Under the pieces are notes generated by a model. That model did no database searches, was not told the DNA's origin, and worked only from the letters and a program-made list of their open reading frames with translations. Of a DNA stretch of 64,000 bases, positions 23,596 through 30,979 are shown one piece after another. The stretch comes from Ideonella paludis (GTDB taxonomy: Bacteria > Pseudomonadota > Gammaproteobacteria > Burkholderiales > Burkholderiaceae_C): the NCBI RefSeq assembly GCF_018069865.1, contig NZ_JAGQDG010000004.1:372001-436000 (forward strand), written 5' to 3'. The stretch's first letter is position 1. Each line of letters begins with the position of its first letter. A program made the translations under genes and the position numbers.

Positions 23596-24627
23596 TTAAC
23601 CTCCATCATCATGGGGCTGGGTGCCCATGCTCTGCATCACCTGCGCCGCGATGCCTAGGGCCCGCCAACGCAGCGCCGGCTCATAGACATCACACACCAG
23701 CATCAGCTCGTCCGCCCCAGTGGCTTGCAGCAGCCGGGCAAAGCCCTCGCGCACGGTTTGGGGGCTGCCAATGACGGCGGCGCCCAGAAAGTCGGCAATG
23801 CCGGCACGTTCAGCCGGGTTCAACTGGGCCACGTAGTCGGGCACCGGCGGCCCGAGGCGGCGCCGGTCACCCCGCAAGATGCCCAACACCCGCTGATAGA
23901 TGCTGCTGGCCAGGAACTGCGCTTCGTCGTCTGTGGGCGCGGCCACCAGCGGCACCCCGATCACCACATAAGGCTTGGCCAGCGTGGCCGAGGGCTTGAA
24001 CGCGCTGCGGTAGACCTCCAAGGCCTGCATCAGCATGCGCGGTGCGAAGTGCGACGCAAAAGCGTAGGGCAAGCCCCGCTCGGCGGCCAACTGTGCGGAG
24101 AACAAGCTGGAGCCCAAAAGCCAGATTGGCACCTGCGTGCCCGCGCCCGGCATGGCCACCACGCGCTGGCCCGGCTGCGCGGGGGCGAGAAACTGCTGCA
24201 AGGCTTGGACCTCGCGCGGAAAGTCTTCTTCAGTCTCGGGCCTGTCGCGGCGCAGCGCCCGCATGGTTTCGCGGTCGGTGCCGGGGGCGCGGCCCAGGCC
24301 CAGATCGATCCGGCCCGGGTAGAGCTCGGCCAAGGTGCCAAAGGCTTCGGCCACCACCAGCGGCGCATGGTTGGGCAACATGACGCCGCCCGAGCCCACG
24401 CGAATGCGCTGGGTGGCACCCGCAATATGGCCCACCAACACCGCCGTGGCCGAGCTGGCAATGCCCGCCATATTGTGGTGCTCGGCCAGCCAATAGCGGG
24501 TGAAGCCCAGACCCTCCACATGCTGGGCGGTGCGCCGCGCCACGGCCAGCGCATCGGCCACACTGCTGCCCTCTCGAACAGCGACCAGATCCAACATCGA
24601 GAGGGGCACAGGGCGAAGGGTGTTCAT
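23596..24627 (-). CDS. Luciferase-like flavin-dependent monooxygenase
   Basis: A 343-residue LLM-class (bacterial luciferase-like) protein of the YhbW type. The start reads [20 protein letters not shown], followed by [38 protein letters not shown] and [13 protein letters not shown], all hallmark segments of the FMN/F420 barrel. ATG at 24627 is preferred over an earlier in-frame start. It lies 60 bases downstream of the argD-type gene and could be in the same transcript. Substrate unknown. Confidence 0.9.
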
Positions 24628-24687
24628 GGCGTGATGATGCCTGCAATCCGCTGGCCCTGCGGGCAGCGCGAAGAGCAAACCCAAGCG

Positions 24688-25896
24688 CTATGCGGCCATG
24701 CTGGTGTGGTGCTGCGCCGCCAAGGCCGCGCCCAGCACGGCCAAGCCATGCTCGATCTCCTCGGCCGTGCTGTTGAGCCTGGGCATGAAGCGCAGGCAAT
24801 GCGGGCGCGCCGCGTTGACCAGCAGGCCGCGCGCTCGGCAAGCGCGCACCAAGGCGGGGGCATGGTCCTGGCCCAACTCCAGCGCCCACAGCAGGCCGGC
24901 GCCGCGCACTTCACCCAAGCCATGCTCTTCCGAGAGGGCTTGCAAACCGCGTTGCAACTGCAGCCCGATGCGGCGCACCTGGGCCAAGAAAGCGGGCTGG
25001 CTGATCTCGGCCAACACGCCCAAAGCGACCGCGCACATCAAGGGGTTGCCCGCATAGGTGCCGCCTTGGTCGCCATGCTCGAACACGCTGCAGTGAGCCT
25101 GCGCCAGCACCGCCGAGATGGGCACGCCGCCGCCCAAGCCCTTGCCCAAAGTCAGGATGTCCGGCCGCACGCCAAAGTGGTGAAAGCCGAACAGCTCGCC
25201 CAAGCGGCCGCAGCCGGTTTGCACCTCGTCAAAGATCAGCAGCAAGCCTTGCTCATCGCACAGCGCACGCAGCGCCTGCAAGAAGGCTGGCGAGGCCGGC
25301 CGCACCCCCGCCTCGCCCTGCACCGGCTCCAGCATGATGGCCACGGTGCGCTGGCTCAAGCGCGCCTTCACACTGTCCAGGTCATTGAGCCGCGCTTTGG
25401 CAAAGCCTTCCATGCGCGGCGCAAACATCTCGTCCCAGCCGGGTTTTCCGCTCGCGGCCATGGTCGCCAAGTTGCGCCCGTGAAAGCCGTTCTCAAAGGT
25501 GATGATCTCGTGCGCCCCCGCTCGATGCAGCCGCCCCCACTTGCGCGCCAGCTTGATTGCCCCTTCATTGGCCTCTGCCCCCGTGCTGCCAAAGAAGACT
25601 TGATCCATGCCGCTGAGCCCACACAAGGCTTGCGCCAATTGCAGGGCAGGCAGGTTGTAGAGCGCGGGGCTGGGCGTCAGCAGCAAGCTACTTTGCGCCT
25701 GCAGCGCCTGGCTGATGACCGGCGGGCAGTGGCCCAGCGCATTCACGGCCCAGCCTTGCAGCCAGTCCAGGTAGCGCTGGCCGGCGGCGTCCCACAGCCA
25801 GGCGCCCTCGCCGCGCACAAAGACCTGCTCGGGGCGCTCGGTCACGGGCATCAAGGTGTGGACGTTCAAGGAAGGCAGGGGCTGTGGGCAGGTCAT
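24688..25896 (-). CDS. argD: Acetylornithine aminotransferase (ArgD type)
   Basis: A 402-residue class-III PLP aminotransferase. Family motifs are YLDWLQGWAVNALGH, FFGSTGAEANEGAIKLARKW, ITFENGFHGRNLATMAASGK, LLIFDEVQTGCGRLG and the PLP-lysine segment LTLGKGLGGGVPISAV. The enzyme would convert N-acetylglutamate semialdehyde to N-acetylornithine in arginine synthesis and may also act in lysine synthesis. ATG at 25896 has GAAAGG six bases upstream. A leader peptide rich in arginine and a terminator precede it, supporting the arginine assignment and pointing to attenuation. Other class-III transaminase activities cannot be excluded. Confidence 0.88.
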   Translation of the reverse strand: MTCPQPLPSLNVHTLMPVTERPEQVFVRGEGAWLWDAAGQRYLDWLQGWAVNALGHCPPVISQALQAQSSLLLTPSPALYNLPALQLAQALCGLSGMDQVFFGSTGAEANEGAIKLARKWGRLHRAGAHEIITFENGFHGRNLATMAASGKPGWDEMFAPRMEGFAKARLNDLDSVKARLSQRTVAIMLEPVQGEAGVRPASPAFLQALRALCDEQGLLLIFDEVQTGCGRLGELFGFHHFGVRPDILTLGKGLGGGVPISAVLAQAHCSVFEHGDQGGTYAGNPLMCAVALGVLAEISQPAFLAQVRRIGLQLQRGLQALSEEHGLGEVRGAGLLWALELGQDHAPALVRACRARGLLVNAARPHCLRFMPRLNSTAEEIEHGLAVLGAALAAQHHTSMAA

Positions 25897-25925
25897 GATG
25901 GGCCTTTCAATCAAAAGTGGCGAGA

Positions 25926-25959
25926 CAAAGAAAAAGGCCACGGGGTGAACCGTGGCCTT
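25926..25959 (-). terminator. Intrinsic terminator in the argD leader (attenuator)
   Basis: On the minus strand a perfect 10-bp stem, AAGGCCACGG, six-base loop, CCGTGGCCTT, is followed directly by TTTCTTTG. There is no upstream minus-strand gene whose end it could serve. It lies 25 bases after the leader peptide stop and about 30 bases before the argD start, the classical position of an attenuator. Confidence 0.8.
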
Positions 25960-25984
25960 GGGGGGAGAAATGGGAGTCTGGGGC

Positions 25985-26101
25985 TTAGATCGACTTCGGC
26001 TTTCTCTCACGCGCAGCGCACGGCAGCGAGCGACGGGCTCGTGCAGCTCGTGCGGCTCGCGCTTGGGCAGCGCTGGTGAAAGAAAGGGCGATCAAGAACA
26101 T
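25985..26101 (-). CDS. Arginine-rich leader peptide of argD (38 aa)
   Basis: A 38-codon reading frame ending 88 bases before argD, too short for normal gene finders. Its middle reads AQARAARAARARRS and it ends AARERKPKSI, with seven arginines. Three are CGA and one is AGA, codons rare in the neighbouring genes. It is followed by the intrinsic terminator. The arrangement matches ribosome-mediated attenuation: stalling at arginine codons when charged tRNA-Arg is low would let transcription pass into argD. I did not find a textbook anti-terminator, though CCGTG within the leader can pair with CACGG of the terminator's 5' arm. An in-frame ATG at 26110 would add three residues. No good ribosome-binding site is seen; a TAAGAT box at 26109-26114 may make the message leaderless. 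Confidence 0.65.
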   Translation of the reverse strand: MFLIALSFTSAAQARAARAARARRSLPCAARERKPKSI

Positions 26102-26198
26102 GAGGGACATCTTAGGCCAACACCGTGTCAACCCGCATCCGCACCGTTGCAAGATGTGGACAATGCACTGGCCCCGACCTCCAACGAGTGCACTGCCC

Positions 26199-28055
26199 AT
26201 GTCCCCTGACACCGCTTCGCATCGCCTTGGCCCCTCTGCCGCCCGATGGGCCATCACGGCCTGGTGCACGCTGACCCTGGCCGCAGCCGCCACAGCGAGT
26301 GAGCCGCCAGTGGGCAGCGCCAGCGCTGCACCCAGCACCGTCCGGGTGGCCTTCCATGGCCACGAGAATGGCTTCGACCCGGCCCAAATCTCAGACGTGG
26401 TCTCGGCGGCCCTGGTGGGCAGCTTGTTTGATGCGCTGCTGACCTACGACCACCTGGCCCGCCCCGCCAAGCTCAAGCCCAACACCGCCGTCAGCTTGCC
26501 TGAAGTCAGCGACAACTACACCCGCTTCGTCTTTCGCATCAAGCCGGGCATCACCTTTAGCGAGCACCCGGCCTTCAAGGACAAAGCGGGCCGGCCCACA
26601 CAGCGCGAGCTGGTGGCGGCCGACTATGTCTACAGCATCAAGCGCTATTACGACCCCGCCGTGCGCAGCCCCACGCTCTTCCATTACCAAGGCGCAGGCC
26701 TGTTGGGCCTGGATGAGCTGCGTCAAAAGGCTTTAGACACCAAGACACCCTTCCCCTATGACACGGAGGTCGAAGGCCTCAAGGCGCTGGACCGCTACAC
26801 CCTGCAGATCCGGGTGGCCAAGCCCGCGCCGCGCCTGCCCTATGTGCTGGCCACACCGGCCTTGAGTGGTGCTGTGGCCCGCGAGGTGATCGAGAGCCTG
26901 CCCGACACCAAGGCCGCCATGGCGCACCCGGTGGGCACCGGCCCCTTCAAGCTCGGAGCCTGGCGGCGCGGCTCACGCATCGTGCTGGAGCGCAACCCGG
27001 CGCACCAGCACAGCGTGCACGATGAACAGCCCGCGGCTGACGACGCCGAGGGCCAAGCCATCGCCCAGCGCTTCCGGGGCCGCAAGCTGCCCATGGTGGA
27101 CCGCGTAGAAGTCTCCATCATTGAGGAAGCGCAGCCGCGCTGGCTGGCCTTTTTGAACGGCGAGTTGGACATGGTTTGGGTGCCCGACGAGTTTGTGGGC
27201 AGCGCAGCGCCCCAGGGGCAGGTCGCTCCCTATTTGGCCAAGCGCGGCGTGCGCATGACCCGCGTGGTGGCCCCTACCACCCGGCATGTCTACTTCAACT
27301 TGGAGAACCCCATTGTGGGCGGCTACACGCCCGAGCGCGTGGCCCTGCGCCGCGCCTTGGCCCTGGCCTATAACGCACCGCGCGAGAGGGCCTTGATGCG
27401 GCGCGGCCAGATGAAGCCGGCGCAGAGCGTGATCCCGCCCCAGGTCAGCGGCTACGACCCGGATCTAAAGTCAGAGATGAGTGATTACGACCCGCAGCGC
27501 GCCAAAGCGCTGCTGGACTTGGCCGGCTATGTGGACAAAGACGGCGATGGCTGGCGCGACCAGCCCAATGGCCAGCCCTTGCAGCTTGAGCTGCACACCG
27601 AACCCACCCAATTGGCCCGCCAATGGCAGGGCCACTGGAAGAGCTCGATGGATGCCATTGGCGTGAAGATGAGCTTCCGCATGGGCGCCTGGCAAGAGAA
27701 CATCAAGGCCGCCCGGGCGGGCAAGCTGATGATGTGGACCACCGGCTGGAGCGCTGCCATCCCGGACGGCAGCTACTTCTTGGACCTGATGTACGGCCCC
27801 AACAAGGGCCAAAGCAACTATGCGCGCTTTGACCTGCCGGCCTTCAACACCCTCAACGAGCAGCAACGCGTGCTACCCGACGGCCCCGAGCGCCAAGCGG
27901 TGATCGCCCAAGCCGTGAAGCTGAGCCTGGCCTATATGCCCTATAAGGCCAGCGGGCATGACGTCAACACCTGGTTGTATCAGCCACGTGTGCAGGGCTT
28001 CCGCCCGCATCCCTTCATGCGCGACTTTTGGCGTTTTGTGGCGCTTGAGCCCTGA
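26199..28055 (+). CDS. ABC transporter substrate-binding protein, peptide/oligopeptide type (SBP_bac_5)
   Basis: A 618-residue periplasmic binding protein of the OppA/DppA family. The signal peptide ends near ATASEPPVG. The family signature region is FKPGI-like (FRIKPGITFSEHPAFKD), followed by AADYVYSIKRYYDP, AHPVGTGPFKLGAW, VEVSIIEEAQPRWLAFLNGE and VALRRALALAYNAPRE. It likely delivers peptides or a related solute to a permease encoded elsewhere, as no permease genes adjoin. ATG at 26199 gives a normal signal peptide. Its promoter lies in the region shared with the divergent argD leader. Confidence 0.9.
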   Translation: MSPDTASHRLGPSAARWAITAWCTLTLAAAATASEPPVGSASAAPSTVRVAFHGHENGFDPAQISDVVSAALVGSLFDALLTYDHLARPAKLKPNTAVSLPEVSDNYTRFVFRIKPGITFSEHPAFKDKAGRPTQRELVAADYVYSIKRYYDPAVRSPTLFHYQGAGLLGLDELRQKALDTKTPFPYDTEVEGLKALDRYTLQIRVAKPAPRLPYVLATPALSGAVAREVIESLPDTKAAMAHPVGTGPFKLGAWRRGSRIVLERNPAHQHSVHDEQPAADDAEGQAIAQRFRGRKLPMVDRVEVSIIEEAQPRWLAFLNGELDMVWVPDEFVGSAAPQGQVAPYLAKRGVRMTRVVAPTTRHVYFNLENPIVGGYTPERVALRRALALAYNAPRERALMRRGQMKPAQSVIPPQVSGYDPDLKSEMSDYDPQRAKALLDLAGYVDKDGDGWRDQPNGQPLQLELHTEPTQLARQWQGHWKSSMDAIGVKMSFRMGAWQENIKAARAGKLMMWTTGWSAAIPDGSYFLDLMYGPNKGQSNYARFDLPAFNTLNEQQRVLPDGPERQAVIAQAVKLSLAYMPYKASGHDVNTWLYQPRVQGFRPHPFMRDFWRFVALEP

Positions 28056-28058
28056 GGG

Positions 28059-28268
28059 CTAGCGGCGCAGCGGCTTGAGCAGGTCACTCAAGCCGTTGTG
28101 GTCGATCTCCTGCATCAGCGCCAGCAAGCGGCCGATCTCGCCCTTGGGAAAGCCCTCGCGCGCAAACCAGTTCAGGTAGTTGCCGGGCAGGTCGGCCAAC
28201 AGCACGCCCTTGTGCTTGCCAAAGGGCATGGGGGTGCTCACCAGTTTTTGCAGGTCTTCCGGGTGCAT
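28059..28268 (-). CDS. DUF3820 family protein (69 aa)
   Basis: A 69-residue cytoplasmic protein matching the DUF3820 family: MPFGKHKGVLLADLPGNYLN, then WFAREGFPKGEIGRLLALMQ. The family has been linked in Pseudomonas to quorum-regulated virulence factors, but its molecular role is not settled. It is convergent with the binding-protein gene, with only three bases between the stops. A structured repeat element lies 40 bases upstream of its start. Confidence 0.85.
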   Translation of the reverse strand: MHPEDLQKLVSTPMPFGKHKGVLLADLPGNYLNWFAREGFPKGEIGRLLALMQEIDHNGLSDLLKPLRR

Positions 28269-28307
28269 GGGTCAATGAGGAGCCAAGGGGGGCCATGGTA
28301 GCCGCTA

Positions 28308-28576
28308 GGAGCGTGGGCGGCAGAAGTTCAGGCTCGCGCCGTGGGGAGTTGCGGTGCATGGCAAGGCGCGCACGAGGCGCATGGCCGACCCCTGCAACGA
28401 GTGCGCAACGCCGACAGGCACCGCAAATCGCTACGGCCCTTCGGGTTGGGGCGGCTTGGGGGTCCATTCGTCGTTGCAACGCTTGCTCGAACAGCACGTG
28501 CGAGCGGCGCGCTGCGCCTAGACTGCTCCCCCCAAGCCGCCCCAACGCGGGCCTGAATTTCTGCCGCCCACGCTCC
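28308..28576. repeat. MITE-like structured repeat, diverged copy B (269 bp)
   Basis: A 269-bp non-coding element flanked by TA on each side, with near-perfect terminal inverted repeats (GGAGCGTGGGCGGCAGAA at the left, its complement at the right). An inner arm, GGGGCGGCTTGGGGG, pairs with CCCCCAAGCCGCCCC, and GCTCG/CGAGC forms a hairpin near the right. The block TCGTCGTTGCAACGCTTGC and the motif GCGCCTAGA are shared with copies A and C at the same relative positions. The terminal and middle arms have different sequences but still pair. This looks like a second subfamily of the same element. It fills most of the 363-base gap between the DUF3820 and acyl-CoA ligase genes. Confidence 0.75.
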
Positions 28577-30307: not shown

Positions 30308-30979
30308 ATGACCACCGCTGCCGCCCATTTCAACGTCGCCTTGCTGGCCTTTGACAACATGGAGGCGCTGGACTTTGCCGGGCCTTTTGAAGTATTCACC
30401 ACCGCCGCGCGCGTGGCCCGCAAGCGCTTCTCTGCCCCGGCAATCCAACCCGGTTCGGGCACCGACCCGAAAGACCTTTTCAGTGTGTGTTGCGTGGCCC
30501 GCAGCCTCGGCCCGGTCAAAGCCCGTGCGGGCCTGCGCGTGCTGCCGGATGCAGACTTTGCGCAATGCCAGCAGGCCGACCTGCTACTCGTGCCCGGTGG
30601 CGTGGTGGACGCCGCGCAAGCCTGCCCGCAGACCTTGGCTTGGGTGCGCCATCTGCACGCCCACAGCCCTTGGACGGCCTCCGTCTGCACCGGCGCCTTC
30701 ATCTTGGCGGCTGCGGGTGTGCTGACCGATGAGCCCTGCACCACGCATTGGGAAGACCTGGTCGACCTGCGCGCGCAGTTCCCAGCGCTGCAGGTGCAAG
30801 CGGGTGTGCGCTGGGTCGAAGCCCAGCAAGGCCGCTTGGTCACCTCCGCCGGCATCAGCGCCGGCATTGACATGAGCCTGCACCTCGTAGCGCGCATGGC
30901 GGCTTCAGTGGGCTGGGACGGCACCGCCCTGGCCGAGGCCACGGCGCGGCAGATGGACTATCCCTGGGTGCGGACTTGA
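30308..30979 (+). CDS. DJ-1/PfpI family protein
   Basis: A 223-residue protein with a class-I glutamine amidotransferase-like fold. It begins VALLAFDNMEALDFAGPFEV and has the nucleophile elbow ASVCTGAFILAAAGVL, with Cys followed by THWEDLVDLR. It matches the sensor half of GATase1-type AraC regulators but has no DNA-binding domain, so it is more likely an isonitrile hydratase or glyoxalase-like enzyme. The last ~28 codons (from RMAASVGWDG to the stop) recur, with synonymous changes, at 32789-32875 behind the HEAT gene. Confidence 0.87.
   Translation: MTTAAAHFNVALLAFDNMEALDFAGPFEVFTTAARVARKRFSAPAIQPGSGTDPKDLFSVCCVARSLGPVKARAGLRVLPDADFAQCQQADLLLVPGGVVDAAQACPQTLAWVRHLHAHSPWTASVCTGAFILAAAGVLTDEPCTTHWEDLVDLRAQFPALQVQAGVRWVEAQQGRLVTSAGISAGIDMSLHLVARMAASVGWDGTALAEATARQMDYPWVRT

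Follow-up and report, generated by a model that had tools for sequence, protein, structure and literature searches.

We have found that an argD-type gene of Ideonella paludis is preceded, in the stretch of 64,000 nucleotides analyzed here (the window), by a short Arg-rich reading frame and an intrinsic terminator, which together very probably form a ribosome-mediated transcription attenuator sensing charged tRNA-Arg; it is from the sequence that we infer regulation by arginine. An Arg-codon attenuator before argD was the core of the original prediction. Conservation and RNA pairing support it, with the refinement that the element would concern one of the two argD copies of the genome.

Anatomy of the argD leader

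The features follow each other on the minus strand in the order -10-like box, leader ORF, terminator and argD-type gene, as follows:

26109..26114, minus strand: -10-like box TAAGAT, ending 7 nt 5' of the leader ATG, a spacing conserved in relatives
25985..26101, minus strand: leader ORF of 38 codons plus stop with seven Arg codons, its start probably leaderless
26030..26059, minus strand: Arg cluster CGA-GCC-GCA-CGA-GCT-GCA-CGA-GCC-CGT-CGC, the predicted stall zone, which includes region 1 (26044-26034)
26015..26025, minus strand: region 2, with GCCGTG, predicted to pair alternatively with region 1 or region 3
25950..25959, minus strand: region 3, the 5' arm of the terminator
25934..25943, minus strand: region 4, the 3' arm of the terminator
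25927..25933, minus strand: T-run TTTCTTT of the intrinsic terminator
24688..25896, minus strand: argD-type gene, an acetylornithine transaminase (NF002985/PRK03715, 571.8 bits with a cut-off of 568)

The leader peptide of the window is MFLIALSFTSAAQARAARAARARRSLPCAARERKPKSI* (26101-25985, minus), and it has seven Arg codons, as had been noted (three CGA, two CGT, one CGC and one AGA). The terminator (25959-25934) is GC rich, as had also been described, with a stem of 10 bp, 7 of them G-C, and a loop of 6 nt followed by the T-run. A distance of 25 nt separates the leader ORF from the terminator stem, and 30 bases separate the T-run from the ATG of argD, 5' of which there is a GAAAGG Shine-Dalgarno-like run (25908-25903). 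The downstream gene had been correctly taken for an acetylornithine aminotransferase and, again as predicted, there is no upstream minus-strand gene for the terminator to serve, the 5' neighbour being a solute-binding protein gene (SBP_bac_5, from 26199) located on the opposite strand. The leader peptide gave no match in Pfam or NCBIfam, and the Rfam search of the leader RNA gave no family above its threshold; matches over the terminator to ncS54 (21.7 bits, threshold 43) and to suhB/mmgR (22.6 bits, threshold 41) were rejected as weak, and the main text of the ncS54 paper does not mention argD, arginine or a leader peptide (PMC5688073). The argD frame (24688-26010, minus) is open through the terminator back to a GTG at 26010, so that automatic annotation could add 38 residues to the protein and hide the leader.

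The TAAGAT box (26114-26109) lies where the original prediction had placed it, and a near-start box of this kind is recurrent: a -10-like hexamer ends 6–8 nt 5' of the start codon in 48 of the 59 leaders compared, while of 157 other ATGs in these stretches 5 had one, at 5–9 nt. The contrast is somewhat favourable, since in-frame alternative starts as far as 12 nt upstream were accepted and, for seven leaders, the start had been placed by hand while the upstream sequence was visible. Given this position of the box in most leaders, the leader mRNA is probably leaderless. Many of the distant leaders have in addition TTGACA-like boxes at 17–18 nt. In the window there is no fitting -35, the TTGACA found (26131-26126) being just 11 nt from TAAGAT, and a promoter scan of 24000-28500 found nothing.

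The locus has also been compared with its surroundings. CGA and AGA are locally uncommon, as had been claimed (46 and 11 of the 928 Arg codons in the 31 window genes), and against these genes the probability of at least four CGA/AGA among seven Arg codons is p = 4e-4. That of at least seven Arg in 38 codons is only p = 0.014, which makes the Arg count by itself a weak signal. Similarly, a simple scan of 24000-28500 gave 6 terminator-like sites against 3.7 (sd 1.9) in shuffles, so that a single terminator proves little; the one before argD exceeds the other five in stem length. The combination of a terminator and an Arg-clustered short ORF upstream was flagged for just one of the 48 long ORFs of the window, that of argD. 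The family also has canonical argD-like loci (40–45% identity to the window protein), and in the 16 checked no upstream terminator was found. The significance of the locus comes mainly from its conservation.

Distribution among relatives and genome context

The layout of leader plus terminator is conserved in 59 loci with distinct leader DNA, plus one further (L168). The frame, its Arg codons and the terminator recur in relatives, whereas a lack of such recurrence had been set beforehand as what would refute the prediction. A scan of a genome collection gave 67 loci, of which 63 were examined (all but L091 and L097-L099); leader and terminator precede argD in all 23 close loci (L033-L055) and in 4 of 40 more distant ones (L056, L063, L064, L086). 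The family loci L003-L016 contained the element in 5 of 14 cases (L003, L004, L005, L006, L008). Over the whole order it is found in 30 of the 53 genomes with an NF002985-type ArgD (51 above the cut-off and two just below) and is missing in 23, four of the leader-bearing genomes and that of the window overlapping with the other sets. The leader-bearing genomes have eleven family labels (f1, f3, f5, f8, f11, f15, f21, f24, f32, f36, f40). The check had been proposed for Comamonadaceae/Sphaerotilaceae; the spread of the element is patchy across the order and not confined to those families. Two loci (L165 and L185) failed the stricter terminator filter and were recognized by a looser one, which added none when applied to the 23 order genomes, 36 scan loci and 9 family loci without leader.

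When the element is absent, argD is sometimes located directly 3' of another gene, for example in L007 and L009, where that gene is argC-like (named by eye). In five loci (L010, L011, L013, L015, L016) argD is directly 3' of a DJ-1/PfpI-like gene, a homologue of which is present in the window at 30308-30979 (plus strand), some 4.4 kb away (both by eye). Besides, upstream of an argD-like gene with 43% identity in an Immundisolibacteraceae bacterium (L092), there is a hairpin with a T-rich tail and a TTG-started frame of 26 codons with RRR, possibly, although doubtfully, an arginine leader for a different ArgD type.

Of 399 family genomes, 79 matched the model of the close form (R1), which may miss divergent leaders, at E <= 0.01. 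Eleven of these reached 45 bits, in all cases before ArgD-type genes; six of the eleven genomes had also supplied training rows and five had not. Among the weaker R1 matches, 23 loci were inspected by eye and resembled coding sequence, a tRNA gene or terminators of the ordinary kind. A second model (R2) was run on 18 genomes. Its 13 strong matches (at least 54 bits) were its own 13 building sequences and, among five other genomes with known leaders, it found the proper leader only in G601 (23.8 bits), so that R2 says little about further copies. One alone of 17 weaker R2 loci inspected (L218) was attenuator-like.

In the ArgD protein tree (108 rows, with row L168 mislabelled) the presence of the leader has to change seven times, and for five of these changes well-supported branches leave no alternative; the leaders fall in two deep parts of the NF002985 type. 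The pattern fits an old element that would have been lost repeatedly, and independent gains could also have produced it. Two records deserve comment by themselves. The record of L059 is titled Klebsiella pneumoniae, a label that is probably wrong, as its ArgD falls among those of gammaproteobacterial metagenome bins. In G611 there is a second match to NF002985 (G611:C1:2514023-2514979) that is truncated and contains an in-frame TGA, probably a pseudogene copy.

The I. paludis genome has a second argD-type gene (L136, G000:C19:280756-281847; TIGR00707, 451 bits) directly 5' of an argF-like gene. We have seen no leader or terminator upstream of it, and the attenuator would for this reason control one of the two argD copies. 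In the same way, no leader was seen by eye before the argG or the argC-type gene of this genome. The arginine repressor ArgR (PF01316) has no match in I. paludis. Across 349 genomes of the order, the profile gave no match above the cut-off and six weak ones below it; as a control, it was found in 9 of 14 known genomes. This agrees with a survey that lists ArgR among the factors which many gammaproteobacterial groups conserve and other classes lack (PMC5343134). ArgR repression also controls arginine biosynthesis genes, but by a protein-DNA mechanism (PMC5343134).

Coding constraint and RNA structure of the leaders

The 24 close leaders share a peptide core, AARAARARRSxPCAARE, of which positions 3, 6 and 8 are Arg in all of them, with AGA replacing CGA once. 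The pN/pS of this core was 0.45 in frame, against 1.07 and 1.77 in the other two frames. In 13 divergent leaders from five other families (f32, f8, f15, f21, f11), with a mean column identity of 49%, three consecutive CGN triplets are present in 13 of 13, with the first and second bases invariant and the third one variable. Runs of at least three Arg were found in frame in 13 of 22 representatives and, in the two alternative frames, in 4 and 1 of them, a comparison biased by the frames having been picked partly by Arg content. The Arg share was 21–23% in frame, against 14–16% when these stretches are read in their other frames; here again the choice of frames by Arg content, together with the seven hand-set starts, favours the frame and -10 comparisons. 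CGA accounts for 137 of the 368 Arg codons in the 59 leaders, against the low share given above for the window genes, and in 32 of 51 it is the first codon of the first Arg run; both leader counts are inflated by kinship among the leaders. Decoding of CGA generally depends on an inosine-bearing tRNA alone, which could make the ribosome most sensitive to a shortage of Arg-tRNA at this codon.

As for the RNA, the GCCGTG of region 2 is kept in 24 of 24 close leaders and can pair with CACGGY of region 3. The RNAalifold consensus of these leaders pairs it with region 1, a pairing for which the swap test across lineages gave p = 0.065, short of significance. None of the 16 consensus pairs had changed on both sides among the close leaders, and covariation must therefore come from the distant ones. 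When region 2 was tested against region 3 from different lineages, the own partner paired better in 13 of 13 loci and 0 of 100,000 permutations were as good, which bears out the covarying antiterminator pairing that had been suggested as a check. The antiterminator segment (region 2), 3' of the Arg codons, changes together with the 5' arm of the terminator between lineages. The z value of the antiterminator averaged -1.53 over the 59 loci (below -1 in 37 and above -1 in 22, with -0.89 in the window), values that are not independent, the loci being related. In the terminator stem of the 13 divergent leaders, 98.3% of cells were paired and 8 cells were changed on both sides, neither figure being equalled in any of 500 shuffles, and the covariation score was reached by 0 of 500. 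The number of terminator pairs with both-sided change was 2, reached by 87 of 500 shuffles.

In 47 of 59 loci, region 3 is predicted to be more sequestered, at the stage when region 4 has yet to be made, if a ribosome occupies the Arg cluster than if there is none. In the window it went from 0.44 without ribosome to a mean of 0.67 (0.80 at best) with the ribosome on the Arg cluster, and was 0.44 with the ribosome at the stop codon. The effect of position is moderate, since a ribosome at codon 3 also raises sequestration, to a mean over loci of 0.68, compared with 0.73 for the Arg cluster.

Proposed mechanism, alternatives and known systems

These data suggest the following sequence of events. 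RNA polymerase would start at the leader AUG or no more than two bases away from it, and this leaderless codon is where ribosomes would initiate. With ample Arg-tRNA the ribosome would pass the Arg codons and region 2, regions 3 and 4 would pair, and transcription would stop before argD. With scarce Arg-tRNA it would stall on the Arg cluster, covering region 1 and leaving the GCCGTG of region 2 free to pair with region 3, so that no terminator would form and argD would be transcribed. The element would then be a concrete answer, at one gene, to how arginine synthesis is controlled in bacteria without ArgR, and arginine biosynthesis would join the pathways under leader-peptide attenuation. We also put forward, as a possibility that we hold somewhat short of probable, that leaderless Arg-codon attenuation at argD is an ancient arginine control of this betaproteobacterial order, replacing the missing ArgR and with CGA as its preferred sensor. 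The leaders make up a natural series with the same apparent function and varied stems and codon runs that could serve for the study of leaderless attenuators.

A different way of using an Arg-rich leader is nascent-peptide arrest, of which the fungal arginine attenuator peptide and SpeFL are examples; here the peptide together with free arginine or ornithine would stall the ribosome, and high ligand would set the switch. The constrained core of the 24 close leaders speaks for it, but across families it is mainly the consecutive Arg codons that persist while the flanking residues change, and a ribosome that stalled when arginine is plentiful would switch argD on at the wrong time, so that we find this improbable. 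Very improbable in our opinion is that the terminator ends an independent short transcript, either a small RNA or the mRNA of a small protein, with argD having its own promoter behind. The element is certainly self-contained, with promoter-like box, ORF and terminator, and two of the sub-threshold Rfam matches over the terminator were to sRNA families; however, 30 bases are left between T-run and ATG, an upstream terminator is missing in all 16 canonical argD-like loci checked, and region 2 co-varies with the terminator arm.

The Arg richness could finally be a by-product of GC-rich RNA structure in an untranslated frame, given that CGN codons are common in GC-rich DNA and that the other frames still reach 14–16% Arg. 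This is contradicted by the in-frame coding constraint, the variation of the CGN triplets restricted to the wobble base and the fixed spacing between start and -10 box, and we give it hardly any credit. Attenuation through stalling at Arg codons is the reading that we prefer.

Classical leader-peptide attenuators are found in the trp, his, leu, ilv, thr and phe operons of proteobacteria. The argD element is like the trp/his/leu class in having a leader ORF with codons for the pathway product (7 Arg in 38, kept in relatives), an intrinsic terminator, recognized from sequence only, before the structural gene, and a competing antiterminator that co-varies with it (13 of 13 in the swap test, unevenly by locus). 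Unlike them, it would sense arginine, its leader is probably leaderless, and the gene is argD. The Sinorhizobium trpL mRNA is reportedly a leaderless leader-peptide mRNA whose transcript begins at the leader start codon, like the start proposed here but in another lineage and for another amino acid.

Sensing of arginine by leader codons is already known from speF. In Salmonella orf34-speF, a pair of adjacent Arg codons within the short leader ORF is described as sensing arginine, and orf34, which codes for a conserved DUF2618 peptide, as controlling ornithine decarboxylase via Rho, RNase G and mRNA folding (PMC6386406). The element described here differs from this polyamine gene in that the leader has no Pfam match, an intrinsic terminator follows and the downstream gene is argD; the orf34/SpeFL (DUF2618) class was rejected for it on the absence of Pfam and NCBIfam matches and on the presence of argD rather than speF downstream. 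The nearest arginine-pathway case met in the literature searched is carAB of Pseudomonas aeruginosa, also an arginine-synthesis gene with a leader peptide, where the proposed attenuation is attributed to pyrimidines, not arginine, and arginine is described as acting at the transcriptional level (PMC4997734). According to a review on E. coli, none of its genes for arginine biosynthesis is under attenuation (PMC6245113). In an account of Actinobacteria, arginine operons are reported to lack a conserved upstream RNA structure, T-boxes for arginine being named elsewhere (PMC1262725), and a term search did not find "arginine" in the main text of three other papers (PMC2965389, PMC4833913, PMC1183508). 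In the openly accessible literature searched, we found no attenuator that senses arginine upstream of a gene for its biosynthesis.

The locus L218 (G576:C1:2942007-2942168, minus) has what looks like a second attenuator-like element with the same layout as the argD leader. A promoter-like site, TTGACA-17-GATAAT, is followed closely by the start of an ORF (about 33 codons, six of them Arg but without an Arg run), then by the terminator GGCCACGG and, 3' of it, by a transporter-like gene (EamA/DMT by eye).
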